From: Bacillota bacterium
GTDB lineage: Bacteria > Bacillota > UBA4882 > UBA10575
Reading direction: 5' to 3'
DNA length: 36,146 bases
NCBI GenBank assembly: GCA_012727895.1
Contig: JAAYGG010000107.1
Span: forward strand, 1 to 36,146
The notes beneath the pieces were generated by a model. That model was not told the origin of the DNA. It made no database searches and worked only from the letters and a program-made list of their open reading frames with translations. The translations under genes and the position numbers were made by a program. Positions 1,692-35,835 of the stretch are shown here, piece after piece; within the stretch, counting starts at the first letter, position 1; the number at the start of each line of letters is the position of its first letter.

Positions 1692-2657
1692 ATGCCGTCG
1701 GAACCCATGCAAACCTCGCTTTCCATGCCATATAAGAGAAAACTGGCCGAGCGGGGTAGATTAGGAAGATTGCTTGCGGACATTAAGAAGAACAAGGTTT
1801 CCTATTTGTTCCTGGCCCCGTACGGAATTATCTTTCTGTTTTTTACCGTCTTACCGGTCGTGATCTCCATTGGGTTCAGTTTTACCTATTACAACATCCT
1901 GGAACCGCCCCAATGGATCGGCTGGCGCAACTACATCAACCTGTTTTTGGCGGACGAGGTATTTCTCATCTCCATCAAAAACACGTTCTTGCTGGCGGCG
2001 ATCACAGGCAGCCTGGGCTATTTTGCCTCCTTCTTCTTTGCCTGGCTCATCAATGAGTTGCCGCGGAGGATCCGGCCCTTTTTCGTCCTGATTTTTTATG
2101 CCCCGGCTTTGGCCGGTTACGCCGTCTCCCAGATCTGGGGCATCCTCTTCAGTGGTGACGCCTACGGCTGGATGAACGGGTTCTTGATGAAGCTTGGGAT
2201 TATCAGGGAGCCTATCTACTGGTTGACTGACCCCAACTACATGCTCCCCGTCCTGATCGTGGTCGTATTGTGGATGAGCCTGAGCCACGGCTTCCTGGCC
2301 TTTGTCGCCGGCTTGCAGACTGTTGACCGCAGCCTCTATGAGGCCGGCTATACAGACGGGATCAGAAACCGCTGGCAGGAGCTGTGGTATATTACCCTGC
2401 CGTCAATGCGGCCGCAGTTGATGTTCGGCGCAGTGATGTCGATTACGTCCTCCTTTGCCATTCATGACGTCCTGGTCCCGCTGGTTGGTTTTCCCAGTAC
2501 GGACTATGCGGCCCATACTGTTGTCTCCCATCTTGTTGACTACGGCAGCTTCCGGTTTGAAATGGGATACGCCTCGGCCATTGCCACCGTGCTCTTCCTG
2601 GTAATGGTCGGGACCAACAAAATTGTACAAAGATTGTTAAGAAAAGTGGGGCAGTGA
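1692..2657 (+). CDS. Carbohydrate ABC transporter permease (MalF/UgpA type)
   Basis: Inner-membrane subunit of a carbohydrate uptake ABC importer (CUT1-like), 321 residues. After a basic N terminus there are about six hydrophobic segments, the first near residues 37-60 (YLFLAPYGIIFLFFTVLPVV). The cytoplasmic EAA loop that contacts the ATPase is at about residue 217 (EAGYTDG followed by ITLPSMRP). The ATG at 1692 is preceded by a GGAGTGGGAG ribosome binding site. It lies two bases after the binding-protein gene and overlaps the next permease by four bases, so the three are one transcription unit and this subunit should pair with the following MalG-type permease. No ATPase gene is nearby; a shared ATPase (MsmK/UgpC type) encoded elsewhere is the usual solution. 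Substrate unknown. Confidence 0.92.
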   Translation: MPSEPMQTSLSMPYKRKLAERGRLGRLLADIKKNKVSYLFLAPYGIIFLFFTVLPVVISIGFSFTYYNILEPPQWIGWRNYINLFLADEVFLISIKNTFLLAAITGSLGYFASFFFAWLINELPRRIRPFFVLIFYAPALAGYAVSQIWGILFSGDAYGWMNGFLMKLGIIREPIYWLTDPNYMLPVLIVVVLWMSLSHGFLAFVAGLQTVDRSLYEAGYTDGIRNRWQELWYITLPSMRPQLMFGAVMSITSSFAIHDVLVPLVGFPSTDYAAHTVVSHLVDYGSFRFEMGYASAIATVLFLVMVGTNKIVQRLLRKVGQ

Positions 2658-3529
2658 GAACCATGAAGTTACTAAGGCCAAGTAATCTCAGTCGTTCATT
2701 GGGCGGAGACATCTTAAACCTGCTCTTCCTGATTTTATGCGGTTGCCTTATGGCTTTGCCTTTGCTGTATACGATTTTCCAGGCACTGAAACCGCTGGAT
2801 GAGATCTTTATCTTCCCACCCCGGTTTTATGTGCGCAATCCGACACTTGATAACTTTGTCCAGCTCCTGGTGATGATGGGAGAGTCGTGGGTGCCATTCT
2901 CCCGCTACCTCTTTAACACGATCTTTGTTACCATTACCGGCACTATTGGCCATGTTATCGTTGCTTCAATGGCCGCGTTCGTCCTGGCAAAGCATAGATT
3001 TCCCGGGCAAAATCTCTTCTTTAATATAGTCATCCTGGCCTTGATGTTTTCTTATCATGTCACGGCAATCCCCAACTATCTAATCATGGCCCGGCTCAAT
3101 TGGGTCGATACCTACCTGGCGCTCATCGTCCCTTACTTCTCGTATCCGTTGGGGTTGTTCCTGATGAAGCAGTTTATGGATCAGATCCCCGACTCGCTGC
3201 TGGAGTCGGCCAGAATTGACGGGGCCAGTGAATTCAGGATTTTCTGGAAGATCGTGATGCCTTCCGTCAAACCGGCCTGGTTGACCCTGATTATCTTCAT
3301 CTTTCAACAGCTCTGGACGATGCAAGGGGGAGTCTACATCTACAGCGAGCAATTGAAGACCCTCTCTTATGCCTTTAGCCAGATTCTCCTGGGCGGGGCC
3401 GTCACCATTGCCCGGGCAGGGGTGAGCGGCGCCGTGGGCTTGTTAATGATGATCCCCCCGATTGTGCTCTTTATTGTAACCCAGAGCAATATCATGGAAA
3501 CCATGGCCACTTCAGGTATTAAGGAGTAA
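2654..3529 (+). CDS. Carbohydrate ABC transporter permease (MalG/UgpE type)
   Basis: Second membrane subunit of the first sugar importer, 291 residues with six predicted membrane spans. The first is near residues 20-45, and the N-terminal PLDEIFIFPPRF stretch is typical of MalG-type subunits. The EAA loop is clear at about residue 184 (ESARIDGASE followed by IVMPSVKP). The GTG start at 2654 overlaps the stop codon of the preceding permease and has an AAGTGGGG purine tract upstream. An ATG at 2663 is the alternative and would remove only three residues. The overlap implies translational coupling with its partner. It differs clearly from the second MalG-type permease at 9384, so the window encodes two permease pairs rather than a recent duplication. 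Confidence 0.92.
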   Translation: MRTMKLLRPSNLSRSLGGDILNLLFLILCGCLMALPLLYTIFQALKPLDEIFIFPPRFYVRNPTLDNFVQLLVMMGESWVPFSRYLFNTIFVTITGTIGHVIVASMAAFVLAKHRFPGQNLFFNIVILALMFSYHVTAIPNYLIMARLNWVDTYLALIVPYFSYPLGLFLMKQFMDQIPDSLLESARIDGASEFRIFWKIVMPSVKPAWLTLIIFIFQQLWTMQGGVYIYSEQLKTLSYAFSQILLGGAVTIARAGVSGAVGLLMMIPPIVLFIVTQSNIMETMATSGIKE

Positions 3530-3541
3530 GGGGGTAGGAGT

Positions 3542-5074
3542 GTGAAGGCTAAACTAATCCGTTGTTTAGTGCTAGCGCTGATAATTGCCGGTTGCTTCGC
3601 CTGCCTGCCGCCGGCGGCCCAGGCGCGGTTACCATACCATACTTATACCTATGATTACTGGGGAGATGTTGTCTATTCCCCCGCCGCCTACCTGCCAAAC
3701 CGGTTAATAACCGGGGAGGACCTGGGGATCGGGACGCTGCGAACCCCCACGGATCTCTTTGTCGGTAATGACGGGAAGGTCTATATCCTTGATGCGGGGA
3801 ACGGGCGGATTGTCGTTACCAATGACCGCTGGGAACTGGTCCGGGTGATCGACGGGTTTGAGAATAACGGCGTCCCTGACCGGTTCAATAATCCCAGCGG
3901 GATCTTTGTGACGGAAGAAGGCCATATTTATGTAGCTGATACCGACAACGGCCGGCTGGTGGAGTTGAATCCGGAAGGGAAATTTGTCCGGGAGATCGGC
4001 CCCCCGCAATCAGATATCATCAAGGATGATTTTATTTACCAACCGACCAAACTGGTGGTGGACCGGGCGGGGCGAATTTATGTAGTGGCGCGCCATGTCA
4101 ACCAAGGATTAATTGAACTGATGCCGGACGGTACTTTCCGCAGTTATATGGGGGCCAGCCGGGTGGCCTTGAATATGGTGGATTATTTCTGGAAAATGAT
4201 CGCCACCCGGGAGCAGCGGGAAAGAATGGCCCTCTTTGTCCCGACCGAATACAACAACCTCTGTATTGACGAGGAAGGTTTTATCTTCGTAACGACCAGC
4301 GCTTTGAATGAGTGGGATATCCAACGGACCATCGATTCCAGAAGCGAAGACGACCGTTATGCACCAATCCGCCGTTTAAATTTGATGGGCAATGATATTT
4401 TGCGCCGCCGCGGGTATTTCCCGCCGGTCGGGGATATCTTAATCGCCCGGAGAGGTTCGGTGCGCGGCCCGTCGATGCTGGTGGATGTGGCCGTCGATGA
4501 CACGGTCCGGGTTTACAGTGTGCTGGACCGGCGCCGCGGCCGGATCTTTACCTATGACAGTGAAGGCAACCTCCTGTATGTCTTTGGCGCCATCGGCGAA
4601 CGCTTCGGGAACTTCCGGAACCCGGTGGCCCTTGATTATCTTGACGACAAAATCCTGGTCCTGGATTATGAGACCGGTACGGTGACCGAGTTCACCGTCA
4701 CCGCCTATGGCCGGTTGATCCGGGATGCAGTTCACCTGCATTTTATCGGCAAGTATGATGAAGCGGCGGCCTGCTGGGAAGAGGTCCTGCTGCAGAACGC
4801 CAACTACGAAATGGCTTATGTGGGAATTGGCCGGGCTTTTCTACGGCAGAGAAAATTTGAAGAGGCAATGAAAAACTTCAAGCTGGGCAACCACCGTAAA
4901 TACTACTCCCGGGCCTTTTATTACCACCGGCGGGAAGTGATCGGCAGGAATTTCGGGCTGATCGTTGGGGTCCTGGCCGCGTGCTTCCTTGCGCTTTATA
5001 TTATCATCCGAGTACGGGAGAAGAGCCAGAAAAGCGCCTACGGGGAGTATCAAAGCGAGGTTAGAGAGATATGA
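3542..5074 (+). CDS. NHL-repeat beta-propeller protein with TPR-like segment and C-terminal membrane anchor
   Basis: 510 residues. The N terminus is a signal sequence with two possible processing sites: a lipobox-like IAGC ending at Cys18, or an AQA site near residue 29. Residues ~60-380 contain NHL/beta-propeller repeats with the pattern hydrophobic-G-x-hydrophobic-Y-hydrophobic-D (KVYILDAGNGRIV, HIYVADTDNGRLVELNPEGK, RIYVVARHVNQGLIELMPDG). Residues ~385-460 look like one or two TPR-type helical hairpins (GKYDEAAACWEEVL, RKFEEAMKNF). A single membrane helix at ~475-495 is followed by a basic cytoplasmic tail. The product should therefore be exported and membrane-anchored with the propeller outside. 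The GTG start has a GGGGGTAGGAG site. It sits between the permeases and a YIP1-type gene whose ATG overlaps its stop. The function is unknown; a scaffold or sensor linked to the sugar importer is a guess. Confidence 0.8.
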   Translation: MKAKLIRCLVLALIIAGCFACLPPAAQARLPYHTYTYDYWGDVVYSPAAYLPNRLITGEDLGIGTLRTPTDLFVGNDGKVYILDAGNGRIVVTNDRWELVRVIDGFENNGVPDRFNNPSGIFVTEEGHIYVADTDNGRLVELNPEGKFVREIGPPQSDIIKDDFIYQPTKLVVDRAGRIYVVARHVNQGLIELMPDGTFRSYMGASRVALNMVDYFWKMIATREQRERMALFVPTEYNNLCIDEEGFIFVTTSALNEWDIQRTIDSRSEDDRYAPIRRLNLMGNDILRRRGYFPPVGDILIARRGSVRGPSMLVDVAVDDTVRVYSVLDRRRGRIFTYDSEGNLLYVFGAIGERFGNFRNPVALDYLDDKILVLDYETGTVTEFTVTAYGRLIRDAVHLHFIGKYDEAAACWEEVLLQNANYEMAYVGIGRAFLRQRKFEEAMKNFKLGNHRKYYSRAFYYHRREVIGRNFGLIVGVLAACFLALYIIIRVREKSQKSAYGEYQSEVREI

Positions 5075-5694
5075 AATACCTGGATAGCCTGAAATTTGCG
5101 TTTTACGTAATTTTCCATCCCTTTAAAGGTTTCTGGGACTTGAAACATGAGAAGAGGGGGAGTATGTCGGCGGCCCTGACCTTCCTGGTGCTGCTGATTA
5201 TCACCTATATCTTGCGGCGGCAATACACGGGTTTTATTTTCAACGAAAACGACCCGAAAGAGCTGAATGTCTTTATCGAGATCATCAGCGTCCTCCTGCC
5301 CTTCTTCCTCTGGGCCACCGCCAACTGGTGTATAACCACATTAATGGACGGGGAAGGGAGCTACAGGGATATCGTGATCGCCACCGCCTACGCCTTGGTC
5401 CCGCTAATCCTGATCAACCTCCCGTTGGTCCCCTTCAGCAGGATCATTAATATGGAGGAAGGGGCGTTTTATTACTTCTTTGCCTCCGTTTCCGTGCTTT
5501 GGACCGGGGCCTTGATTCTGGCCGGGGCATCGGTTACCCACCAGTATACAATGACAAAGACCGTCTTTACCAGCATACTGTCGGTGGTGGGGATGGGTTT
5601 GATGATCTTTATCGGGCTGTTGGTTTTCAGCCTGTTACAGCAGATGATTAGTTTCGTTTATACAATTTACCGGGAAATTGCATTTCGATTGTAA
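5071..5694 (+). CDS. YIP1-family-like integral membrane protein
   Basis: 207 residues with about five hydrophobic helices (approximately residues 30-47, 65-90, 100-125, 133-155 and 165-195). The N-terminal sequence FHPFKGFWDLKHEKRGS resembles the conserved opening of bacterial YIP1-domain proteins, and the polar loop MDGEGSYRDIVIATAYALVP between helices is also characteristic. The ATG overlaps the stop of the NHL gene as ATGA, indicating coupled translation, and the DUF5696 gene follows after 18 bases. I recall NHL, YIP1 and DUF5696 genes occurring together in carbohydrate-transport loci of Bacillota, which suggests a shared membrane complex. No biochemical role can be assigned. The family call rests on motif recall and topology only. 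Confidence 0.7.
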   Translation: MKYLDSLKFAFYVIFHPFKGFWDLKHEKRGSMSAALTFLVLLIITYILRRQYTGFIFNENDPKELNVFIEIISVLLPFFLWATANWCITTLMDGEGSYRDIVIATAYALVPLILINLPLVPFSRIINMEEGAFYYFFASVSVLWTGALILAGASVTHQYTMTKTVFTSILSVVGMGLMIFIGLLVFSLLQQMISFVYTIYREIAFRL

Positions 5695-5712: not shown

Positions 5713-8331
5713 ATGAAAACCCGATCTTTTCTGGTGATTGCCTTTATAATTGCCTTGGTGGCCGGCGCCGGGGTGCTTTTCCTCCGCCCTGCCACTGAGA
5801 TCGCTGCGGAAGAGGGTTTGCCCGGGCCGGATACGGCCGGGGAAACGTCCACCGGCAATTCACCGGCAGCGGGGAGCGCGCCGCCGGTTTTGGGCGCCCT
5901 GGGAAAGGTGGCGGAGAATGAATTTCTCGCCCTTTATTTCTCGGAGAAAACCACGGAAGTGGCGGTCCTGAAGAAAAAAACCGGTGAAGTATGGTACAGC
6001 AACCCGCCCGAGCGGGCGGCGGACCCGGTGGCCGTGGGGATTAACAAGACCAAACTGGGATCGCAGTTAAGCATCACCTTTTATACCCCCCACGCCCACA
6101 GGAGGACGATGGATAATGCCAGCGAGAGCATTGAGTACGGGCAATACGAATTCGAGAAGCTGGCAAACGGGATAAAAGTTACTTATACCATTGGTAAAAA
6201 AGAAGAGGTTTATATTATCCCTGAGAAAATCACCGGCGAACGTTTTGACCAGGTTGCGGAGAAAATCAGCTCCTCGCAACTGAGGAACTTGCAGCGGCGT
6301 TATATCAAAATTGACCTGAATGAGGTGGAGGACCGCAGGGAAAGGCAGAAACTTATGGATGAGCACCCGGCATTGCGCCGGCATGACGTGGTCTATGTCC
6401 TGCGGCCGAACTTGAGCCTTTTTGTCCTCCGCCAATTGGACGCGATTTTTGTCGAGGCCGGGTATACGCTGGAAGATGTCAACGAAGACCACAGGGAAAA
6501 CGAGGTTCCCGAGAAGGAAATGCCCAAGGATATTTTCACCATCCCGCTCTATTATACCCTGGACGGGGAAAACCTCGTGGTCTCCATACCCAGCAACGAG
6601 GTGGTCTATCATTCTTCCTACCCGTTGACTGAGATAAAGGTCCTGGAGTTCTTTGGCGCCGCTGGGCCGGGGGCCGAGGGGTATATCTTCGTTCCCGACG
6701 GGTCCGGGGCCTTAATCCACCTGAACAACGGGAAAACCCGGCACCGGGCTTATTACGGCCCTGTTTACGGGCGGGACTTAGCCCTGCAATACACGGAGAT
6801 CTTTGAGGAACGGGAGCAGGTCTACCTCCCGGTTTACGGCATGAAACAGGGGGACAAGGCCTTTTTCGCCATTATCGAGAAGGGCGACTCCTTGGCCACC
6901 ATCATTGCCGATGTCGGCGGCAGGATCAACTCTTACAATACTGTCTGCGCTGAGTTCAGTTCCGTCGCCCACGGCACCATTGACCTGACCACACTGGCCG
7001 GGAACAACGTGATCAAGGTTTACCAGAAGCGGATCTCCCAAGGGGATTTCCAGATCCGTTACGCCTTTTTAAGCGGGGAAAAAGCGAATTATGTGGGCAT
7101 GGCCGAGTACTACCGGGACTACCTGCTCAAAAAAGGCGCCTTAAAAGCGGAACGGACCGCCGGCGCGGTACCGTTCTACCTTGAATTGGTAGGGGCAATT
7201 GACAAGATCAAACCCTTCCTCGGGGTTCCGGCCCGCCGGATTGAAGCGTTGACCACCTTCAACGAGGCCAGGGAGGTGGTTGACCGCCTGCTGGCAGCAG
7301 ATGTTGCCAACCTTAAGCTGCGTTATACCGGGTGGTTTAACGGCGGGTATCGCCAGAGTTTGCCGAGTAATATCAATATCTTAAGAGAACTCGGCGGGCG
7401 GACCGGTTTCACCCGGTTGGCCAGGTATCTGGCAGCTAATAATGTGGAATTCTATCCTTCCGTCACCTTTGAATACGCCAAAAAAGCCGGGATCTTGCGG
7501 GGCTTTAATACAAGGACCTCCGCCTCCCGCTTTATCAACCAGGATGTGGGGGTCTTGTATGAGATCAACCCCGCAACCTACCAGGAAGACAAGGAAAAAC
7601 GGGCGCAATACATGGTCTGTCCTTCCCGTATCGGGCGGTATGTGAACCGCTTCTTGCGCGGGTACCGGTCTCTTAATATAAACGGGATTGCCTTGACCAC
7701 CATGGGACAGGACTTGAACGCCAACTACCGGGAGAAACGCCTGGTCGACCGGGCCCAGGCCCAGAAGTATGTCGAAGCGGAGCTGGCGAAGATGACTGAG
7801 GCCGGGTACCGGTTGTTGGCCGAAGGGGTCAATGCCTACGCCCTGCCCTATACGGCGCATATCATCAATATGCCGCTGGATTCCAACCACTACCTGATTA
7901 CCGACGAAAGCATCCCCTTCTACCAGATCGTCACCTGCGGGCATGTGGATTACGCCGGCGAACCGGTTAATCTTGCCGGTGACCCGCGGCGGGCGTTCTT
8001 AAAAACCATCGAAACCGGCGGCGGCCTTTATTTCACCTGGATTTACCGGGATAACTCCCTGATCAAAGAGAGCGATTATGATCACCTGTATTCGGTGGAT
8101 TATAAAAAATGGTTCGACCAGGCGGTAGCCTATTACCGTGAAGCCCAGGAAGTACTGGGGGATATACGGGGACAGCGCATTATTGACCACCGGCGCCTGG
8201 CCGACAATGTCTATCAAGTAACCTTTGAAAAGGGGAAAACCATCATGGTCAACTACAACCGGGAACCGGTTACCGTGAAAGGGATAACCCTGGCGGCTGA
8301 GAGTTATCATGTGTTACGGGAGGGCAGGTGA
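5713..8331 (+). CDS. DUF5696-type exported protein, possibly a glycoside-hydrolase-like enzyme
   Basis: 872 residues starting at an ATG with an AAAGGAAGGGGAT ribosome binding site. Residues 7-27 are a signal or anchor helix, followed by a low-complexity Gly/Pro/Ala/Thr stretch to about residue 58. Residues ~60-460 are rich in beta strands (EFLALYFSEKTTEVAVLKKK, GEVWYSNPPE, VPDGSGALIHLNNGK). Residues ~480-780 look like an alpha/beta barrel with alternating strands and helices (NLKLRYTGWFNGGYRQ, FYPSVTF, GIALTTMGQDLNANY, RLLAEGVNAYALPYT). The last ~70 residues form a small beta domain (TIMVNYNREPVTVKG, ITLAAESYHV) of the type that closes many glycoside hydrolases. Asp667 and Glu704 lie at predicted strand ends and are candidate acidic catalytic residues. 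That enzyme reading is inference; the family has no assigned function that I know of. Its stop overlaps the GTG of the following permease. Confidence 0.75.
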   Translation: MKTRSFLVIAFIIALVAGAGVLFLRPATEIAAEEGLPGPDTAGETSTGNSPAAGSAPPVLGALGKVAENEFLALYFSEKTTEVAVLKKKTGEVWYSNPPERAADPVAVGINKTKLGSQLSITFYTPHAHRRTMDNASESIEYGQYEFEKLANGIKVTYTIGKKEEVYIIPEKITGERFDQVAEKISSSQLRNLQRRYIKIDLNEVEDRRERQKLMDEHPALRRHDVVYVLRPNLSLFVLRQLDAIFVEAGYTLEDVNEDHRENEVPEKEMPKDIFTIPLYYTLDGENLVVSIPSNEVVYHSSYPLTEIKVLEFFGAAGPGAEGYIFVPDGSGALIHLNNGKTRHRAYYGPVYGRDLALQYTEIFEEREQVYLPVYGMKQGDKAFFAIIEKGDSLATIIADVGGRINSYNTVCAEFSSVAHGTIDLTTLAGNNVIKVYQKRISQGDFQIRYAFLSGEKANYVGMAEYYRDYLLKKGALKAERTAGAVPFYLELVGAIDKIKPFLGVPARRIEALTTFNEAREVVDRLLAADVANLKLRYTGWFNGGYRQSLPSNINILRELGGRTGFTRLARYLAANNVEFYPSVTFEYAKKAGILRGFNTRTSASRFINQDVGVLYEINPATYQEDKEKRAQYMVCPSRIGRYVNRFLRGYRSLNINGIALTTMGQDLNANYREKRLVDRAQAQKYVEAELAKMTEAGYRLLAEGVNAYALPYTAHIINMPLDSNHYLITDESIPFYQIVTCGHVDYAGEPVNLAGDPRRAFLKTIETGGGLYFTWIYRDNSLIKESDYDHLYSVDYKKWFDQAVAYYREAQEVLGDIRGQRIIDHRRLADNVYQVTFEKGKTIMVNYNREPVTVKGITLAAESYHVLREGR

Positions 8332-9317
8332 GACCGATGAAATTTGATTTCCAGGATTTCCTGCTGAAACTGAAAAGAAGCCTTGGCGGCCTGAAGCTGA
8401 AGTTGAACTCCGGCGATAAAACAACGCATATGACTATGGAAAAGAGAAGGGCGATTGCGGGTTACGTCTTTATCTCCCCGTTTCTGATCGGGTTGATCTT
8501 CTTTTTCCTCTACCCGTTCCTTCAATCGGTAATCTTTAGTTTTAACAGTATCCAAATCGGCGCCCAGGGCTATGAGATGACGGGGGTCGGGTTTGAAAAC
8601 TACCGGCGGGCCTTTCTGGTGCACCCGACTTTCAGCCGGGTCTTGGTGGAATCGATCATCCAGATGATCACCGACGTGCCGCTCATCATCATCTTCAGCT
8701 TTTTTGCGGCCAACCTGATTAACCAGAAATTCCGGGGGCGGGCGGTGGCAAGGGCCATCTTTTTCCTCCCCGTCATCATGACCTCCGGGATCATCCTGGC
8801 GGTTGAGAACAACGATTTGCTTTTGGGGATCATGTCCGGCGCCATCCAGCCGGATACCGCCGCCGGTGCGGTGCGTGCCTTAGAGCTGCGGACCCTGTTG
8901 ATGGAGACCAGGATGGACCCGCGGTTTGTCAGGTATATTATTGATGCGGTTGATCGTCTATACGAGATTGTCAAGGCTTCCGGGGTCCAGATCCTAATCT
9001 TCCTTGCTGGTTTACAGACCATCTCCCCCTCCCTCTACGAAGCCTCGACCATGGAGGGGGCAACCGGGTGGGAGAACTTCTGGAAAATTACCTTTCCCAT
9101 GATCAGCCCATTAATCCTGGTTAACACCGTTTATACCGTAATTTACTCGTTCACTAACCCCAACAACCCGGTGATGGAGATTATTAAAAATACGGCTTTT
9201 GCCGAGTCAAGGTTTGGCTTCAGCTCCGCCATTGCCTGGATCTATTTCCTGGTTATCTTGGGGATCCTGGGCATCCTGATCGGGGTCATCTCCAGATGGG
9301 TCTTTTACCATGACTAA
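8328..9317 (+). CDS. Carbohydrate ABC transporter permease (MalF/UgpA type), second system
   Basis: 329 residues with six predicted membrane helices, beginning with GYVFISPFLIGLIFFFLYPF after a ~45-residue basic amphipathic N terminus. The EAA loop is at about residue 238 (EASTMEGATG followed by ITFPMISP). Between the third and fourth helices there is a ~60-residue charged insertion (around residues 160-220, including ALELRTLLMETRMDPRF) that is longer than in the first MalF-type permease. The GTG start overlaps the stop of the DUF5696 gene; an ATG at 8337 is the alternative. It should pair with the MalG-type permease at 9384 and receive substrate from one or more of the binding proteins that follow. 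No ATPase subunit is encoded alongside. Confidence 0.92.
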   Translation: MRPMKFDFQDFLLKLKRSLGGLKLKLNSGDKTTHMTMEKRRAIAGYVFISPFLIGLIFFFLYPFLQSVIFSFNSIQIGAQGYEMTGVGFENYRRAFLVHPTFSRVLVESIIQMITDVPLIIIFSFFAANLINQKFRGRAVARAIFFLPVIMTSGIILAVENNDLLLGIMSGAIQPDTAAGAVRALELRTLLMETRMDPRFVRYIIDAVDRLYEIVKASGVQILIFLAGLQTISPSLYEASTMEGATGWENFWKITFPMISPLILVNTVYTVIYSFTNPNNPVMEIIKNTAFAESRFGFSSAIAWIYFLVILGILGILIGVISRWVFYHD

Positions 9318-9383
9318 AAGGCGGGGCAAAGACCATGTGCGGGCGTGTCTTACTATCCATGGAATAGTTAAAGAGGTGAGAAT

Positions 9384-10382
9384 ATGAAGGCCATATCCTT
9401 AGCAAAAGCAGGACAGGCGCTTGAAACCAGAGAACAGCGGGCAAACTGGCGGCATGCCGTCTTTTTCCAGGCCAAGAAGATTTTATGGGTGACGGTACGC
9501 ACCATTTTGGTGGTGGGGATCTGTTTCTTGATCCTCTATCCCCTCGCCGCTAAGCTGTCCGTCTCCGTCATGGCCGAGCGTGACCTCTATGATATTACCG
9601 TCTGCTATGTTCCCAAGCATTTCACCTGGGAGAACTACCGGGTTGTCTGGAAACATATGGGCTTTCCCGGGACCTTTTTTAACTCGCTCTGGCTCTCATT
9701 GACCACCGGCATCCTCCAGGTAATCGCCTGTACGCTGGTGGGTTACGGATTTGCCAGGTTTGACTTTCCCCTGAAGAAATTCCTCTTTGGGATGGTCATC
9801 GTAATGCTGGTTGTTCCGCCGCAGACGATCATGGTCCCGCTGTTTTTGCGTTTCCGTTTCTTTGATATTTTTGGGATTATAAAATTGTTCAGCGGGAGCA
9901 CAGTCAACCTGATCGATACTTTCTGGCCCTTCATCCTGACCTCGGGTACCGGCACCGGTCTCCGGAACGGGCTGTATATCTATATGATGCGGCAGTTTTT
10001 CCGGGGTTCCCCCAAGGAACTGGAGGAATCGGCGTATGTGGACGGGGCCGGCCCTTATAAGACCTTCTACTATATTATGCTGCCCATTGCGGTCCCGATG
10101 ATGGTTACGATCTTCCTCTTCTCCTTTGTCTGGCAGTGGACCGACACCTTCTATACCACCCTTTTCCTGGAGAAGCTGACGACCCTGCCGACGGTCCTTT
10201 CCTCGCTGGCCGTCTCCATCAACTATCAGGAATTCGGCCCGATGGCAACGATGAGTCCGGCTTACGCTTCCATGCTTAACAATACCGGAAGCGTCCTGGT
10301 GATCCTGCCGCTGATCGCTATCTACCTCGTCGCGCAGAGGTACTTCGTGGAGAGTATCGAAAGGTCCGGTATTATCGGTTAA
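9384..10382 (+). CDS. Carbohydrate ABC transporter permease (MalG/UgpE type), second system
   Basis: 332 residues with about six membrane spans and a ~30-residue N-terminal extension ahead of the first helix (LVVGICFLILYPLAAKLSVS). The EAA loop lies around residue 214 (ELEESAYVDGAGPY followed by IMLPIAVP). The ATG at 9384 has an AAAGAGGTGAGAAT ribosome binding site. A 66-base gap without a terminator separates it from its MalF-type partner, so the two are probably cotranscribed. It ends 142 bases before the array of binding-protein genes, consistent with those proteins feeding this permease pair. The long polar loop between helices four and five (GIIKLFSGSTVNLIDTFW) is unusual but in frame and free of stops. 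Confidence 0.92.
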   Translation: MKAISLAKAGQALETREQRANWRHAVFFQAKKILWVTVRTILVVGICFLILYPLAAKLSVSVMAERDLYDITVCYVPKHFTWENYRVVWKHMGFPGTFFNSLWLSLTTGILQVIACTLVGYGFARFDFPLKKFLFGMVIVMLVVPPQTIMVPLFLRFRFFDIFGIIKLFSGSTVNLIDTFWPFILTSGTGTGLRNGLYIYMMRQFFRGSPKELEESAYVDGAGPYKTFYYIMLPIAVPMMVTIFLFSFVWQWTDTFYTTLFLEKLTTLPTVLSSLAVSINYQEFGPMATMSPAYASMLNNTGSVLVILPLIAIYLVAQRYFVESIERSGIIG

Positions 10383-10524: not shown

Positions 10525-11852
10525 ATGCAAAGGAAAAGCAGAGTGTTCTTGATTATTACCGGTAGTTTGCTCCTGCTGGCCTTGATAGCCGGCGCAGCTA
10601 CAGTCGTTGGAAAGGAGAAGTACAATTTCCGTGGCCGGACGGTAACCTACTCCGCCTGGTGGGAATTGCGCCCGCAGCCCGGAGCATCGGTGGAGATGGA
10701 CCGGCAGATCCGGCGGGTGGCTGAAGTAGAAAAGAAATACAACGTAAAGATCGATTACGTCAATATTCCCTGGGGAGAGTACCTGGCCCGGTATATTACC
10801 ACGGTGATGGCCGGGGACAGTATGGCCGATATTGTCTGTGTCGAGGTCAACTGGTTCTACCCTACGCTGCTGCTGAACAATTTCTGTACGAACTTGAGTG
10901 AACTTGGGGTCTTTGATTTCACGAAAGAGAAGTTCCAGAAAGAAACGATCGAGTTTGGCAAGTACAAGGGGGGTATTTACTGTTACGAGGTGGGCCGGAT
11001 CTACCCGCGCGGTGTGCTCTACTTCAACAAGACCATGTTCGCGCGGGAAGGCATCACCGACATGTATGATGTTTTCTTTAATTACGAGTGGACCTGGGAA
11101 AAGATGCTTGAATACGCCAAAAAGCTGACCAAGGATACGGACGGGGACGCATCATTGACCAGTGGGGCCTTGGCGGCACGACCGGCCGGGTCTGGTTGGG
11201 CTTTATCATCTCCAACGGCGCTCATTTCATCGATATTTCCGATAAAAGCAAGCCCCGTTTTGCCCTGGGCGATCCCCAGGCCATTGAAGCGCTCCAGGCT
11301 TACCAGGATTTCATCCTCAAACACCAGGCGGTCTTGATCCCGCCGGAGGGTGCGCCGTGGGATTACGCGCTCCAGGCCTTTATCGACGGAAAAGTGGGGA
11401 TGCTCGTCGAGCAGATTTACAGGCTCCACGACTTCAAAACAAAGATGCAGGATGAATACGGCGTGGTCCTGTTCCCGATGGGTCCCAGGATGAAAGAGTA
11501 TACCTCGGAACTCACCGGGCACTTTGTCAAAGTAATGCCGATCACCGTGAAGAACCCGAAAGAAGTGGCGATTGTGGAGGATGCCATGACCGAACCGTAT
11601 CCGGACGAAGACCCCGACGACTGGCGGGAGTATTACGAGATGCGGATGACCGACGAGGAGTCCATCCGGACGGTCGAGATGATCTGGGAGAAAAATCTCA
11701 GCGTCTTTAACCTCCAGTCGGCCTTTGGCATCATGGACATCTTCTATACCATGGACTGGGAGCTCCAGACCGGCGCCAAGACCCCGCAGGCGGCGGTGGA
11801 AGAGTATGCCCAAGAAGCGCAGATGCGGATTAATGACTCCCTGATCTTATAA
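10525..11852 (+). pseudogene. Solute-binding protein copy 1, interrupted by a single-base frameshift
   Basis: The ATG at 10525 has an AAGGAGG site about 12 bases upstream. Residues 1-~30 are a signal sequence with no lipobox cysteine. The first ~208 codons match the neighbouring paralogs up to the KLTKDTDGD block. The frame then changes at about 11148-11150, where GACGC replaces the expected GACGGC, and the original frame terminates at 11337. The remaining protein continues in the +1 frame (IIDQWG-type residues, then GRVWLGFIISNGAHFIDISD) to the stop at 11852. Restoring one G gives a protein of about 442 residues, the same length as copy 2. The break falls exactly in the conserved acidic DxDxDG loop. 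It may be a true inactivating mutation or a consensus error; the downstream sequence still looks well conserved, which favours a recent event or an error. Confidence 0.85.
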
Positions 11853-11877
11853 AACATAAGAATTATATAAAGCAAAG

Positions 11878-11917
11878 TTGCCAATCTGGTTAACCGAAGG
11901 GTTAACCAGATTGGCAA
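11878..11917. repeat. Perfect 18-bp inverted repeat (hairpin) between binding-protein copies 1 and 2
   Basis: The arms are 11878-11895 (TTGCCAATCTGGTTAACC) and 11900-11917, an exact reverse complement, with a GAAG loop. No T-run follows on either side, so it is not a standard intrinsic terminator. It begins 25 bases after the stop of copy 1. It may be an operator or an mRNA-stabilising hairpin; a decayed third copy of part of it (GGTTCGCCAGATTG) occurs at 11974-11987. Confidence 0.85.
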
Positions 11918-11920
11918 TTA

Positions 11921-11957
11921 GTAAACCGGTTAACTATAGATCAGTTAACGGGTTTAC
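11921..11957. promoter_or_regulatory. Second inverted repeat with LacI-operator-like core
   Basis: Fifteen-base arms at 11921-11935 (GTAAACCGGTTAACT) and 11943-11957 pair with one mismatch around a 7-base loop. The left arm is itself nearly palindromic, with AACCGGTT at its centre, which resembles the CG-centred operators of LacI-family sugar regulators. GTTAAC occurs four times between 11889 and 11949. The repeat abuts an extended -10 element, so a bound repressor could block that promoter. The regulator is inferred; none is encoded in this window. Confidence 0.5.
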
Positions 11958-11966
11958 TGGTATAAT
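11958..11966 (+). promoter_or_regulatory. Extended -10 promoter element for binding-protein copy 2
   Basis: TGGTATAAT matches the extended -10 consensus TGnTATAAT exactly. No good -35 hexamer lies 16-18 bases upstream, which is tolerated with an extended -10. Transcription would start near 11973, leaving a leader of about 127 bases before the gene at 12100. Confidence 0.5.
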
Positions 11967-12099
11967 AGCTTACCGGTTCGCCAGATTGTTTTCTCAGGAA
12001 ATGTGCAATAAAAGGGGAGACGCACACGCGCGAACTTGCTTTTATTGGGCACAACCAGCATAATTATAAATAATAAATAAAAAGGAGGCGATTGCTAAA

Positions 12100-13425
12100 A
12101 TGAAAAACTGGTTGCGCGTAGCGGTTGTTAGCGGATTGGTTTTGGTCGTACTGGTAGTGACCCTTACGGCCGGGGGAAAAGAGGAGAAATACAATTTTAA
12201 GGGGCGGACGATTACCTACTCCGCCTGGTGGGAACTACGGCCGGATCCTGGAGTTTCCTTGGAAATGGAGCGGAAGGCCCGGCGGGCTGCTGAGGTAGAA
12301 AAGAAATATAACGTAAAGATCGATTACGTCAATATCCCCTGGGGGGAATACCTGGGCAGGTACATAACATCCGCCATGGCCGGCGACAGGATCGCGGATA
12401 TCGCCATTGTGGAGGCGGAATGGTTTTATCCCACGCTCCTGATGAATAATTTCTGTACAAACTTAAGCGATTTAGGGGTATTTGATTTTACCGCGGAAAA
12501 ATTTGAACCGGTTACGGTGAATTTAGGCACTTACCAGGGAAAAGTTTATGCTTATGAAACCGGCCGGCTCTATCCCCGGGGCGTGCTCTTCTGGAATAAG
12601 AGCATGTTCGCGCGGGAAGGCTTGCCTGATTTATATAAGATTTTCTTCAACTATGAGTGGACCTGGGACAAAATGCTGGAATTTGCGAAGAAACTGACGA
12701 AAGATACCGACGGCGACGGTATAATCGACCAGTGGGGGATCGGCGGCGCCAACCAGCGGTTGGAACAGGCGCTTGTCATCTCCAACAACGCCTGTTATAT
12801 TGATATTACCGACCGGGAAGATCCCAAATTCGGCCTGACCCACCCCAATGCCATTGAGGCCCTCCAGATGCACCAAGATTTGATCCTCAAACACGGGGTC
12901 GTATCAATGTCACCGGAGGGAGCGCCGTGGGATTATAATGTCCATGCTTTTGTCGAAGGCAAAATCGGGATGCTCGTCGGGAAATTCTGGAAGATCAGTG
13001 ACTATATGAAAGGGAAAATGCAGGACGAATACGGAGTCGTTTTGTTCCCAATGGGACCGAAGGCCAAAGAGTATGCCTCAGAGATGACAGGACATAATTT
13101 CAAGACCATGCCAATCACAGTGAAGAACCCCAAGGAAGTGGCGATTGTAGAGAATGCCATGACCGAGCCGTTCCCGGACGAGGCTCCCGACGAATGGCGG
13201 GAATACTATGAATTAAATGTGAATGATGAAGAGTCGATCAAGACCGTCGAAATGATCTGGGAGAAACAACTGGGTGTCGTCAACCTCCAGTGGGCCTTCG
13301 GGATCAACGACATCTTCTATACCATTGAGTGGGAGGTAATGACCGGGAATAAAACGCCCACAGCGGCTGTGGAGGAGAGGGCTCAGGAAGCCCAGATGCG
13401 GATTAAGGATGCTTTAAACCTCTAG
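12100..13425 (+). CDS. Extracellular solute-binding protein copy 2 (family 1)
   Basis: 441 residues beginning with MKNWLRVAVVSGLVLVVLVV, an export signal ending near LTAGG. There is no lipobox cysteine, so it should be a soluble exported protein or keep an N-terminal membrane helix. It has the paralog blocks SAWWELRPDPG, KKYNVKIDYVNIPWGEYLGR, EAEWFYPTLLMNN and NYEWTWDKMLEF. The acidic loop Asp202-Asp204-Asp206-Asp210 (DTDGDGIID) resembles a calcium-binding DxDxDGxxD loop. The C terminus is EERAQEAQMRIKDALNL. The ATG has an AAAGGAGG site. It is closest to broken copy 1, so it may cover that function. Its role is capture of a sugar or oligosaccharide for an ABC importer, most likely the permease pair at 8328-10382; the ligand is unknown. 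Confidence 0.9.
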   Translation: MKNWLRVAVVSGLVLVVLVVTLTAGGKEEKYNFKGRTITYSAWWELRPDPGVSLEMERKARRAAEVEKKYNVKIDYVNIPWGEYLGRYITSAMAGDRIADIAIVEAEWFYPTLLMNNFCTNLSDLGVFDFTAEKFEPVTVNLGTYQGKVYAYETGRLYPRGVLFWNKSMFAREGLPDLYKIFFNYEWTWDKMLEFAKKLTKDTDGDGIIDQWGIGGANQRLEQALVISNNACYIDITDREDPKFGLTHPNAIEALQMHQDLILKHGVVSMSPEGAPWDYNVHAFVEGKIGMLVGKFWKISDYMKGKMQDEYGVVLFPMGPKAKEYASEMTGHNFKTMPITVKNPKEVAIVENAMTEPFPDEAPDEWREYYELNVNDEESIKTVEMIWEKQLGVVNLQWAFGINDIFYTIEWEVMTGNKTPTAAVEERAQEAQMRIKDALNL

Positions 13426-13500
13426 TTTTTGTTGTAATTTGTAATATTACTATAGGTTTTTGCAAGATAGTTTTTGACGGCAAGATTTATTGGAAGAAAG

Positions 13501-13542
13501 AAGAGGAACCCCAAGGAGGCTGAGGTTCCTCTTGCTTTTTTT
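13501..13542 (+). terminator. Intrinsic terminator after binding-protein copy 2
   Basis: A perfect 10-bp stem AAGAGGAACC (13501-13510) pairs with GGTTCCTCTT (13524-13533), followed by GCTTTTTTT. It lies 76 bases after the stop at 13425, so copies 1-2 are separated transcriptionally from copy 3. Confidence 0.92.
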
Positions 13543-13580
13543 GTCCGGGAGAAGAAAAAATCTTTCATGTTTTTTAATGT

Positions 13581-13610
13581 TTGCCATTTCCAATTTAAAT
13601 ATATTATAAT
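13581..13610 (+). promoter_or_regulatory. Sigma-A-type promoter for binding-protein copy 3
   Basis: A -35 TTGCCA (13581-13586) and a perfect -10 TATAAT (13605-13610) are spaced by 18 bases in a very AT-rich stretch, directly after the terminator of copy 2. The expected start near 13617 leaves a leader of only about 40 bases. Confidence 0.8.
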
Positions 13611-13655
13611 ATAGTTATAAATAAAATTTAAAATTCGGGAGGGATGAGGAACAAG

Positions 13656-15008
13656 ATGATAAGAAGACGGAAACTGGTTTTACTTACCCTTGGTGTGCTG
13701 ATCCTTGTTATGCTGGTGGCCGCCACTACGACCAGTGCACGGATTTTCCGGTCGAAGAAACAAGATTTCGGCGGGCGGTCGATCCGCTGGGCAACCTGGT
13801 GGGACTCCGCACCGCAACCCGGCCGGTCGGAACGGGAGGACCTCCGGTTGCAGCGGGAGGCCGAGGTCGGGAAGAAGTACAATGTGAAATTTGAGTACCT
13901 GAATGTCCCCTGGGGCGAGTTTATGGCCAAGTATATCACCACCGTGATGGCAGGGGATGCTATGGCCGAGATCGTCAGTGTCCAGACCGACTGGTTCTAC
14001 CCGACGCTGCTCCTGAATAACTTCTGCCTGAACTTGAGCGAATTGGGTGTCTTTGATTTTAAGGCCTCCAAATTCCAGAAGGAAACCATTGAATTTGCCA
14101 CCCTGGACGGGTCGGTCTACGGGTATGAGATCGGCAGGATCGAGCCCAGAGGGGTAATCTTCTTCAACAAGACCATGTTTGAACGGGAAGGGATTTCCGA
14201 CATTTACGATACGGTTTTCAACTACAAATGGACCTGGTCGGAAATGCTGAAGGTTGCCAAGAAACTGACCAGGGATACCGATGGCGACGGGGTTATTGAC
14301 CAGTGGGGTCTTGCCGGCGCTACCGGCCGGATCTGGCGGGGCTTCATCATCTCCAACGGTGCAAACTTCATTGATATCAGCGACAAATGGAAACCCCGCT
14401 TCAGCCTGGGCGATCCGGCGGCTCTTGAAGCCCTCCAGGCTTATCAGGACTTTATCATAAAAGAAAAAGTCGTCCTGGTCTCACCGGAAGGCTCTCCGTG
14501 GGACTACCCGGTCCAGGCTTTCATCGACGGGAAAGTGGGTATGCTCGTTGCGCAGCTGTGGAATATTGACAAGCTGCGCGACAACATGAGCGACGAGTAC
14601 GGGGTCATCCTCTTCCCCATGGGGCCGCGGATGAAAGAATACACCTCCGAGGCCACCCTGCACCACTTCAAAGTCTTCCCGATCACCGTGAAGAACCCGG
14701 AACAAGTGGCGATTGTGGAGAACGAGATGACCGAGCCATATAAAGTCGGCGGCCAGTTGCTGCTGATGGAAGAGAAAAACGAAGAATGGCTGGAAATGCG
14801 GGTGACCGACGAGGAATCGATCCAGATAGTCCAGATGATCTGGGACAAGAACATCAGCGTCTTCAACCTGCAGGAAGCCTTTGGCGTCATGGATATCTTC
14901 TACACAATCGACTGGGAACTCCAGACCGGAAACAGCACACCGCAGGCGGCGGTGGAAGAGTACGCCCAAGAGGCCCAGATGCGGATTAACGACTCCTTAT
15001 TACTCTAA
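13656..15008 (+). CDS. Extracellular solute-binding protein copy 3 (family 1)
   Basis: 450 residues from the ATG at 13656, which has GAGG six bases upstream. An ATG at 13644 is in frame, but its GGAGGG is immediately adjacent, so it is less likely. The basic N terminus MIRRRKLVLLTLGVLILVML is an export signal without a lipobox cysteine. Family blocks include RWATWWDSAPQPGRSERED, KKYNVKFEYLNVPWGEFMAK, DWFYPTLLLNN, the acidic DTDGDGVID loop and EEYAQEAQMRINDSLLL. Relative to copies 1-2 it has an extra short segment near residue 370 (VGGQLLLMEEKNEEWLEM), shared with copies 4 and 5. It is driven by its own promoter. Likely ligand class is sugars or oligosaccharides; no specific ligand can be read from the sequence. 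Confidence 0.9.
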   Translation: MIRRRKLVLLTLGVLILVMLVAATTTSARIFRSKKQDFGGRSIRWATWWDSAPQPGRSEREDLRLQREAEVGKKYNVKFEYLNVPWGEFMAKYITTVMAGDAMAEIVSVQTDWFYPTLLLNNFCLNLSELGVFDFKASKFQKETIEFATLDGSVYGYEIGRIEPRGVIFFNKTMFEREGISDIYDTVFNYKWTWSEMLKVAKKLTRDTDGDGVIDQWGLAGATGRIWRGFIISNGANFIDISDKWKPRFSLGDPAALEALQAYQDFIIKEKVVLVSPEGSPWDYPVQAFIDGKVGMLVAQLWNIDKLRDNMSDEYGVILFPMGPRMKEYTSEATLHHFKVFPITVKNPEQVAIVENEMTEPYKVGGQLLLMEEKNEEWLEMRVTDEESIQIVQMIWDKNISVFNLQEAFGVMDIFYTIDWELQTGNSTPQAAVEEYAQEAQMRINDSLLL

Positions 15009-15297
15009 TCGCCGGTTACACGAAGCACAGTCACTTTCTGCTTCGTCAACCGGGTGATCCGATTAGCCCTTGAGAGCCGGAAGAGCGGGATAACACGCTC
15101 TTCCGGCCCTTAGGCGTTAGGCGCCGGGTTTGCCCTTTTTTGCTCGTCCGCACCGTCTTCCCGCGTGACGCAATCCGCAAGCCCGGCGCCGGTATTTTCC
15201 ACACCATTTTCGGGAAAGGATTCGCTTCCCTTATCCCGGCCATAGCCTAGAGCGGGCCGGGGCGGGGGAAGGCTGAAGAATGGGGGAGGATTAAGCT
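15009..15297. other. Intergenic region with three consecutive inverted repeats
   Basis: I see no gene in these 289 bases, but they are rich in dyad symmetry. Hairpin A, 15012-15053, pairs CCGGTT...ACGAAGCA with TGCTTCGT...AACCGG with small bulges. Hairpin B, 15076-15107, is a perfect 12-bp stem, GCCGGAAGAGCG with CGCTCTTCCGGC, and an 8-base loop. Pair C has 14-base arms at 15120-15133 and 15177-15190 (GGCGCCGGG core) with one mismatch and a 43-base interior. No T-run directly follows A or B, so they are not classical terminators. A ribosome binding site (GGGGGAGG) for the next gene lies near 15282. There is no obvious promoter. Confidence 0.6.
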
Positions 15298-16641
15298 TTG
15301 AAAAAAAACAAGTTATTCCTGGTGGTTTTTCTGGCGGGAATAATCTTCCTTCTCCTGGCCGTTGCCATGGTGGCCGGCGGGAAAGAGAAGAAATATGATT
15401 TTGGCGGCCGGACCATTACTTATGCCACCTGGTGGGAGATTAAACCGCAGCCGGGCCGGTCGGAACGGGAAGACCTGCGGTTGCAGAGAGAAGCAGAGGT
15501 CGCAAAGAAGTATAATGTAAAAATCGATTATACGACAGTTCCCTGGGGCGAGTTTATGGCCAAATATCTCACCACCGTGATGGCAGGGGATGCCATGGCC
15601 GATATCGTCAGTGTTCAGGTTTGCTGGTTCTATCCGACACTACTGATGAATAATTGTTGTCTCTCCCTATCCTCTTTGGGCGTTTTTGATTTTAACGCGC
15701 CCAAGTTTCAAAGGGAGAGTATAGAATTTGCCACCCTGGACGGGGAGATCTATGGCTACGAGATTGGGAGGATCGAGCCCAGAGGGGTGATCTTCTTTAA
15801 CAAATCCATGTTTGAACGGGAAGGACTCCCCAATTTGTATGAGATTTTCTTTAATTACGAGTGGACCTGGGATAAGATGCTCGAGTTTGCCAAGAAAGTA
15901 ACAAAAGATACCGACGGCGACGGGATTATTGACCAATGGGGGATTGGCGGCGCCACTGGCCGGCTCTGGGGCGGTTTCGTTTTCTCCAATGGCGGCCATT
16001 TTGTCGATATATCCGATAAGTGGAACCCCCGGTTCAGTATGGGCGATCCTAATACCCTCGAGGCCCTTCAGGCTTTTCAGGATTTTGCCATAAAACACGA
16101 GGTTATGCTGGTGAAACCAGACGGCGCCCCATATGACTACCCGGTCCAAGCCTTCCTCGACGGGAAATTGGGTATGCTCTGCGCTCAAGTTTGGAACCTT
16201 GACAAGATGCGGGACAGCATGAACGATGAGTACGGGATAGTTTTATTCCCTATGGGACCAAAGATGAAGGAATATACAGCGGAGGCCACCGGCCACCATA
16301 TCCGGACCTTCCCGGTGACCGTCAAGAACCCGGAACAGGTGGCCATCGTGGAAAATGCCTTGACCGAACCTTATGAAGTCGACGGTGAACTGCGGGTTAT
16401 CGAAGAGAAGAACGAAGAATGGTTGGAAATGCGGGTAACCGACGAAGAATCAATCCGGGTGATCCAGATGATCTGGGACAAACAGTTGAGTGTCTTCAAT
16501 TTACAGGAAGCCTTTGGGATCATGGATATCTTCTATACCCTCGAGTGGGAGTTGGAACACGGGATCAAGACACCGCGGGCGGCGGTGGAAGAAGTTTCCC
16601 AGGAAGCCCAGATGCGGATTAGTGATTTCTTGTTGCTTTAG
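15298..16641 (+). CDS. Extracellular solute-binding protein copy 4 (family 1)
   Basis: 447 residues from a TTG start, supported by an upstream GGGGGAGG site and by exact agreement with the length of copy 5. The N terminus MKKNKLFLVVFLAGIIFLLL is an export signal without a lipobox; processing is probably near the VAGG segment. Conserved blocks include ITYATWWEIKPQPG, KIDYTTVPWGEFMAKYL, VCWFYPTLLMNNCCLSLSSL, DTDGDGIIDQWGIGGATG and EEVSQEAQMRISDFLLL. Odd features are cysteines in the NNCC block where the other copies have NNFC, and EEVSQE in place of EEYAQE or EEYSQE. No terminator separates it from copy 5, so copies 4 and 5 are probably cotranscribed. The role is substrate capture for a sugar ABC importer; ligand unknown. 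Confidence 0.9.
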   Translation: MKKNKLFLVVFLAGIIFLLLAVAMVAGGKEKKYDFGGRTITYATWWEIKPQPGRSEREDLRLQREAEVAKKYNVKIDYTTVPWGEFMAKYLTTVMAGDAMADIVSVQVCWFYPTLLMNNCCLSLSSLGVFDFNAPKFQRESIEFATLDGEIYGYEIGRIEPRGVIFFNKSMFEREGLPNLYEIFFNYEWTWDKMLEFAKKVTKDTDGDGIIDQWGIGGATGRLWGGFVFSNGGHFVDISDKWNPRFSMGDPNTLEALQAFQDFAIKHEVMLVKPDGAPYDYPVQAFLDGKLGMLCAQVWNLDKMRDSMNDEYGIVLFPMGPKMKEYTAEATGHHIRTFPVTVKNPEQVAIVENALTEPYEVDGELRVIEEKNEEWLEMRVTDEESIRVIQMIWDKQLSVFNLQEAFGIMDIFYTLEWELEHGIKTPRAAVEEVSQEAQMRISDFLLL

Positions 16642-16749
16642 TTGCCAGCGTTTTCTGAATCAATCCCGGAGAAGGCCCCGTTCCCACTATGCCGGTCCTT
16701 GCCTGCCGCGGGCCGGGTGATGGGAAGGCGGGAAAAAGGGGGTTACACC

Positions 16750-18093
16750 TTGCAAAAAAACAGGTTGTTCCTGGTGATCCTGGCGGGACTAGTCTTTATT
16801 GTCCTGGCGGTTGCTGTGGCTGCCGGCGGGAAAGAGAAAAAATATGATTTTAGCGGCCGGACCATTACTTATGCCACCTGGTGGGAGTATAAGCCGCAGC
16901 CGGGCCGGTCGGAACGGGAAGACCTGCGGTTGCAGAGGGAAGCGGAGATCGCAAAGAAGTATAACGTAAAAATCGATTATACAACAGTTCCCTGGGGCGA
17001 ATTTACGGCCAAATACATCACCACCGTGATGGCAGGGGATGCCATGGCCGACATCGCCAGCGTCCAGATTGACTGGTTCTACCCGACACTGCTGATGAAT
17101 AATTTCTGCCTCAACCTTTCCGCGCTGAATGTCTTTGATTTCACCGCCCCCAAGTGGCAAAGGGAGACCGTGGACTTTGCCACCCTCGACGGGGATGTCT
17201 ATGGGTACGAGATTGGAAGGATCGAGCCCAGGGGGGCGATTTTCTTCAACAAGGCCATGTTCGAGCGGGAAGGCCTGCCCGACTTGTATGAGGTCTTTTT
17301 CAATTACGAGTGGACCTGGGATAAGATGCTCGAATTTGCCCAGAAACTAACGAAGGATACCGATGGCGACGGGATTGTTGACCAATGGGGGATTGGCGGC
17401 GCCACCGGCAGGGTCTGGTGCGGTTTGCTCCTCTCCAATAACGCCCATTTTATTGATATCTCCGATAAAAGGAACCCCCGGTTCAGTATGGGCGACCCCA
17501 ATGCCATCGAAGCCCTCCAGTTCTTCCAGGATTTGGCCATAAAATACAAGGTTATGCTGGTTAAACCGGAAGGGGCCCCTTATGATTACCCGGTCCAGGC
17601 CTTCCTCGAGGGGAAACTGGGGATGCTCTGCGCCCAGATCTGGAATATCGATAAGATGCGGGACAACATGAAAGATGAGTATGGAATAGTCCTCTTCCCC
17701 ATCGGGCCGAAGATGAAGGAGTATACGGCGGAGGCTTCCGGCCACCACCTGAGGACCTTCCCGGTGACCGTGAAGAACCCGGAACAGGTGGCCATGGTGG
17801 AGGACGCCTTGACCGAGCCCTATAAAATCGATGGTGAGTTGCGGGTTATCGAAGAGAAGAATGAAGAGTGGCTGGAAATGCGGGTGACCGATGAGGAGTC
17901 GATCCAGGTTGTCCAGATGATCTGGGACAAACAGCTGAGTGTCTTTAACTTCCAGGCCGCCTTTGGTATTATGGATATCTTCTATACCATCGAGTGGGAA
18001 TTGGAGCACGGACAAAATACACCGCGGGCGTCGGTGGAGGAGTATTCCCAGGAAGCCCAGATGCGGATTAATGACTATATGGCCCCGTTATAA
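16750..18093 (+). CDS. Extracellular solute-binding protein copy 5 (family 1)
   Basis: 447 residues. The frame is open back to 16642, but the true start is taken as the TTG at 16750: it follows a GGGAAAAAGGGGG tract, begins LQKNRLFLVILAGL exactly where copy 4 begins KKNKLFLVVFLAG, and gives the same length as copy 4. It has an export signal without a lipobox cysteine. It shares ITYATWWEYKPQPGRSERED, KIDYTTVPWGEFTAKYI, DWFYPTLLMNNFCLNL, DTDGDGIVDQWGIGGATG and EEYSQEAQMRINDYMAPL. It is the closest relative of copy 4, indicating a recent tandem duplication followed by divergence in the middle region (CGLLLSNNAHFIDISDKRN against GGFVFSNGGHFVDISDKWN). It is the last gene before a terminator. Sugar-binding role inferred from family and location. 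Confidence 0.9.
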   Translation: MQKNRLFLVILAGLVFIVLAVAVAAGGKEKKYDFSGRTITYATWWEYKPQPGRSEREDLRLQREAEIAKKYNVKIDYTTVPWGEFTAKYITTVMAGDAMADIASVQIDWFYPTLLMNNFCLNLSALNVFDFTAPKWQRETVDFATLDGDVYGYEIGRIEPRGAIFFNKAMFEREGLPDLYEVFFNYEWTWDKMLEFAQKLTKDTDGDGIVDQWGIGGATGRVWCGLLLSNNAHFIDISDKRNPRFSMGDPNAIEALQFFQDLAIKYKVMLVKPEGAPYDYPVQAFLEGKLGMLCAQIWNIDKMRDNMKDEYGIVLFPIGPKMKEYTAEASGHHLRTFPVTVKNPEQVAMVEDALTEPYKIDGELRVIEEKNEEWLEMRVTDEESIQVVQMIWDKQLSVFNFQAAFGIMDIFYTIEWELEHGQNTPRASVEEYSQEAQMRINDYMAPL

Positions 18094-19214: not shown

Positions 19215-19228
19215 AAAGGGGGAGAGGG

Positions 19229-23000: not shown

Positions 23001-23114
23001 CGGTATAGTCCCTTCCCCTTGTTTCATGAAAAAAATCTTTCAGAGCTCTTGCTGCCAATGGCCAGGCATCCCATTACCCGCGCATGGTATGGGCCGCGTG
23101 TAGCAGGGGCCGTT

Positions 23115-27582: not shown

Positions 27583-27596
27583 GAAGAGGTGATCGC

Positions 27597-28796: not shown

Positions 28797-28825
28797 AAAC
28801 AGCAAGAAGGAGGAGAAGGAGAGAA

Positions 28826-34345: not shown

Positions 34346-35835
<1,490 letters not shown>

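Follow-up and report, generated by a model that had tools for sequence, protein, structure and literature searches.

What an uncharacterised protein of glycosidase-like appearance does in the midst of a sugar transport operon is the question raised by the locus examined here. The window, the whole stretch of DNA that was analysed (36,146 nucleotides, contig JAAYGG010000107.1 of a Bacillota bacterium), carries on its plus strand an open reading frame (5713-8331) for a protein of 872 amino acids, which matched DUF5696 (PF18952) over residues 254-865 with an E-value of 8.6e-214 and a score of 712 bits (curated cut-off 25.6), the full profile being covered. An earlier note on this DNA had read the protein as an uncharacterised glycosidase on the plan of large retaining enzymes, likened its barrel to those of GH36, GH101 and GH129 enzymes and proposed Asp667 and Glu704 as candidate catalytic acids. 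The gene itself was found to be as described, with the motif RYTGWFNGGYRQ at residues 537-548, Asp at 667 and Glu at 704, and with a sugar permease pair on either side (1692-3529 and 8328-10382). A search of open-licence papers for DUF5696, PF18952 or an operon of NHL, YIP1 and permease genes found none.

The protein was divided into a hydrophobic anchor (residues about 1-30, by hydrophobicity), an N-terminal region with a GH129-like WxSxP motif, a GH129-like barrel region (about 445-800) and a small C-terminal beta region (about 820-870), the limits of the latter three being set by homology only. A hydrophobic segment begins not only the query but also 54 of the 59 non-redundant DUF5696 relatives over which conservation was counted, and thus the protein is probably membrane-anchored with its body outside the cell. 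Two structure predictions were set aside, as both had a mean pLDDT below 50; the barrel with flanking beta domains and the strand-end placing of Asp667 and Glu704 that the note described can thus be judged through homology to GH129 only. The source genome (2.3 Mb) carries a single copy of the gene; near-identical copies were detected in two further metagenome-assembled genomes, and the near relatives were 90% and 88% identical. DUF5696 was found above the Pfam cut-off in 25 of 299 sampled genomes of the phylum. In one family, that of genome G066, it was present in 79 of 121 genomes, a single genome having as many as nine matches; in the tree, the members from this family are placed close to a Cohnella sequence. 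No relative was found among viral contigs.

Search of the PDB with the query as a single sequence returned nothing relevant. By use of a profile of 26 DUF5696 members, five distinct chains were matched up to E=1, and these came from only two proteins: DagB (ZGAL_3152; PDB 5opq), a GH129-like alpha-1,3-(3,6-anhydro)-D-galactosidase that was the best match at 3.4e-11, and NagBb of Bifidobacterium bifidum (PDB 5wzn), a GH129 alpha-N-acetylgalactosaminidase, at 3.8e-8. The DagB match consisted of three colinear stretches (N-terminal, barrel start and C-terminal), the C-terminal one not being significant alone. No GH36 or GH101 chain was among the matches up to E=1, and of the likenesses originally proposed only that to GH129 was borne out; structural kinship to GH101 would come through GH129 only (PMC8106489).

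For further comparison, GH129 proteins were gathered from related genomes of the G066 family. Profile-profile alignment (hhalign) of DUF5696 with the five GH129 proteins nearest NagBb gave a probability of 98.7% and E=3e-16 over 459 columns, compared to 71.6% and 3.5e-5 for a more divergent GH129 set and 0.6% for an unrelated neighbour family that served as control. In the reverse search, E-values ran from 2.9e-8 to 7.1e-13 for the five NagBb-like proteins and from 5.9e-6 to 0.11 for the more divergent ones; the two weakest of the latter were inseparable from background, since the best of 950 shuffled decoys reached 0.2 and the best of 304 neighbour proteins 0.11. The Pfam model of GH129 (PF11308) was absent from the matches of the query at E up to 10, from the source genome and from 299 genomes of the phylum, and no GH129 fragment was found in plasmids. 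The Pfam DUF5696 model also matched GH13 and DUF6259 barrel proteins weakly, which we took as no more than an indication of a TIM-barrel fold. Based on the profile comparisons, homology of DUF5696 to the GH129 group appears well established, and a (beta/alpha)8 barrel would follow from it.

The catalytic residues were compared by MAFFT alignment and named motifs, the profile-profile alignment being unreliable over the catalytic region. In the PDB chain of NagBb, Asp435 lies in the context YLD435VF and Glu478 in SSE478E, and we take the former to be the nucleophile and the latter the acid/base. Glu704 of the query (codon at 7822-7824, plus strand) falls in the column of Glu478, as NagBb HGILTSSEEVSDWAVP pairs without gaps with query AGYRLLAEGVNAYALP; in the same alignment the invariant R680, 24 residues upstream of E704, meets NagBb Arg454. 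Asp435, which is counted as one of the two NagBb catalytic residues and equated with Asp486 of DagB (PMC5698469), meets query residue 660 by MAFFT, or residue 662 if the column is judged by four Asp-bearing members with an ALD/AVD-like context (L013, L115, L116 and L124). Codons 660-662 (7690-7698, plus strand) encode Ala-Leu-Thr, and residues 655-666 (NINGIALTTMGQ) provide no acid in either register. Of the 59 relatives, 45 had Ser and 8 had Ala at column 660, and 32 had Arg at column 662. The four Asp-bearing members branch apart from most DUF5696 proteins and, with Asp at column 662, have no acid at 704. The column of the conserved GH129 Asp521, which follows the VPLY motif, is occupied by Gly743 (7939-7941, plus strand), a Gly in 59/59 relatives. 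In the GW motif, the Asp of HLDGW falls at Thr539, a position taken from the HMMER alignment because the combined-alignment column for NagBb residue 330 was unreliable.

These comparisons bear directly on the residues first proposed as catalytic. Asp667 (7711-7713, plus strand) is Asp in just 5 of 59 relatives and is not supported as a catalytic residue. Glu704 does align with the GH129 acid/base and is kept within the genus of the query, but it is acidic in only 18/59 relatives. Since D667 is not conserved, and since the family has no conserved acidic pair (the nucleophile column being Ser/Ala or Arg), an active retaining glycosidase of the kind envisaged in the earlier note is unsupported; the want of such a pair is a finding that the note itself had named as counting against its reading.

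Other residues are well kept in DUF5696. Most of the family retains D671 (53/59), H742 (46/59) and D663 (40/59), these being replaced in the query by Asn, Cys and Thr, respectively. Asp at column 671 was lost at scattered points of the tree, with six changes for six rows rather than one event. The polar set kept by most members also includes N707, Y709, N753 and R680, and W541, N707 and N753 are among the most conserved residues of all. D329, D355 and E767 are nearly invariant, the first two being located before the barrel. E767 (58/59) was weighed as a catalytic residue and put aside, as the model, poor in this part, places it in a helix that precedes a strand, and its GH129 column is not acidic.

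It may be asked whether DUF5696 is an active glycosidase, or a carbohydrate-active enzyme of related kind, whose catalytic machinery has been rebuilt and which would trim oligosaccharides at the membrane just ahead of import. The kinship to GH129 and the E704 of the query are consistent with such an enzyme, although the GH129 positions are without a conserved acidic pair. A new site could be built from D671, H742, D663, N707, Y709 and N753, and the catalytic acids of DagB do differ from those of NagBb (PMC5698469); in GH117, catalysis is by a His/Asp pair (PMC11574756), and the Asp at column 662 of the four early-branching members also fits. The explanation is nonetheless weaker for the query itself, because this protein is devoid of the D663, D671 and H742 that a rewired site of the majority would use. 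With the gene linkage described below, which is far stricter than that of a control glycosidase family, we consider an active enzyme unlikely, if still a serious alternative.

The carbohydrate context that the note had recognised was apparent from the solute-binding proteins, permease pairs and nearby glycosidases of the locus. All of the following genes are on the plus strand. A solute-binding protein gene cut by the contig start (1-1689; PF01547, E=8.9e-21) is followed by an upstream pair of ABC permease genes (1692-2657 and 2654-3529; PF00528), a gene for an NHL-repeat/TPR protein of 510 amino acids (3542-5074; PF01436, E=3.2e-16) and one for a YIP1-domain membrane protein of 207 amino acids (5071-5694; PF04893, E=3.1e-15). 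DUF5696 comes next, followed by a downstream permease pair (8328-9317 and 9384-10382; PF00528) and five consecutive genes for solute-binding proteins (10525-18093), the first with a frameshift. The permease pair and solute-binding protein thus share a strand, the arrangement by which a carbohydrate ABC importer operon was recognised.

By neighbour-family profile searches, the order NHL, YIP1 (directly upstream of DUF5696), DUF5696, permease, permease was found on one strand in 45/45 loci, which are non-independent, as eight are from one genome and many from one family with shared ancestry. The NHL/TPR protein is sometimes fused to the YIP1 protein, and the upstream permease pair is present in 36/45 loci. 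By contrast, when 20 GH42 beta-galactosidase genes of overlapping genomes were treated likewise, only one was followed directly by a permease pair, and NHL or YIP1 genes were near none of them (0/20); this control is small, and the contrast with 45/45 is nonetheless large. The glycosidases near the modules vary and include GH26, GH42, GH3 and GH31, with GH2, GH4, GH35, GH26, GH9 and GH43 elsewhere. Since the five-gene order with its permease pair is fixed in all 45 loci, the linkage suggests that DUF5696 is the partner of a transporter and not a hydrolase of the ordinary kind. Kinship to GH129 and transporter linkage are both well supported, and the latter, which extends beyond the coordinates given in the note, is the more interesting result compared to the catalytic reading.

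A long solute-binding protein was detected in 37 of the 45 loci. These relatives are about 980 amino acids in length, of which about 560 make up an uncharacterised N-terminal domain; the profile of this domain is matched by positions 1-411 of the window. The domain constitutes a separate family, to which a single genome can have as many as 21 matches; the long protein was rejected as a mark specific to the module, as it also occurs without DUF5696.

Taken together, the kinship, residue loss and gene linkage lead us to favour, with moderate confidence, a membrane-anchored, extracytoplasmic GH129-like protein that has lost the GH129 catalytic residues and that, alongside NHL and YIP1 proteins, serves a carbohydrate ABC importer as a fixed partner without hydrolytic activity. 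On this basis DUF5696 would retain the sugar-holding cleft of a glycosidase and not its cutting chemistry. It probably binds or positions an oligosaccharide in what was once the active-site cleft, and the sugar would then be handed to the downstream permease pair, with the NHL-repeat and YIP1 proteins acting with DUF5696 as a fixed part of the importer. Physical contact with the permeases is proposed from gene order alone, and surface location is probable from the hydrophobic segment. As a speculation, the variability of column 704 may reflect a role in specificity.

Certain findings count against a non-hydrolytic partner. E704 is kept in the genus of the query, and DagB illustrates that catalytic acids can differ within the superfamily (PMC5698469). 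The conserved D671, H742, N707, Y709, N753 and R680 could represent a rebuilt active site, an objection tempered by the absence of D671 and H742, as well as D663, from the query. That DUF5696 is instead a structural, assembly or regulatory part, which would hold the NHL protein, YIP1 protein and permeases together or signal transporter load, we judge improbable, for although its constant association with genes for NHL/TPR and YIP1 proteins and the constancy of the module beside different glycosidases are in accord with such a part, the high conservation of W541, N707 and N753, which by alignment are expected near the barrel mouth, favours a ligand pocket.

The importer partner that we favour was compared to known systems. 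DUF5696 and NagBb share DYxxMAxxYR-like, GW..G and VPLY/IPFY motifs, and E704 of the query falls in the Glu478 column; unlike NagBb, DUF5696 is not acidic at the Asp435 and Asp521 columns, has an extra N-terminal region and is obligately linked to a transporter. DagB, by contrast to DUF5696, is an active hydrolase in which the candidate nucleophile Asp486 is kept (PMC5698469), and it sits in a carrageenan gene cluster whereas DUF5696 sits in an ABC importer operon. Similarly to importers of the CUT1 type (MalFG and UgpAE), the DUF5696 operon encodes permeases in pairs together with solute-binding proteins, all from the families usual for such systems. It differs from this type by the second permease pair and the solute-binding protein of about 980 amino acids at most loci, and by the fixed extra NHL/TPR, YIP1 and DUF5696 genes.

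We put forward, tentatively, the possibility of a distinct class of Bacillota carbohydrate ABC importer with a built-in extracytoplasmic assembly of NHL protein, YIP1 protein and a non-cutting receptor of glycosidase fold, often with two permease pairs, present in up to about nine copies per genome and directed at different glycans. By this work the uncharacterised DUF5696 family is given relatives and a role that can be tested, and a five-gene transport core is brought together whose members, when annotated one by one, appear as 'sugar permease', 'NHL', 'YIP1' and 'DUF'. If the non-hydrolytic role is correct, a glycosidase label for DUF5696 would be misleading, and many glycan operons of Bacillota would hold an undescribed importer accessory.

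Further features of the window were noted. The first solute-binding gene after the permeases (10525-11852, plus strand) is split by its frameshift, as an intact relative of 442 amino acids on the related contig L002 matches it in two different frames; this represents either a pseudogene or an assembly error. A run of five solute-binding genes is also present in L002 (13832-20616), and perhaps several binding proteins share one importer. Downstream, genes for an ABC-2 membrane protein, ABC_transp_aux and DUF4340 lie in a row (18351-22101, plus strand) and resemble an export-like ABC system. These are followed at 22200-34240 by type II secretion/type IV pilus-like genes, with a secretin on the minus strand, a GspE-like ATPase, a GspF-like protein and PilN. 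At 34669-35835 (plus strand), a GH11 xylanase with ricin-type lectin repeats is encoded, which suggests growth on xylan.
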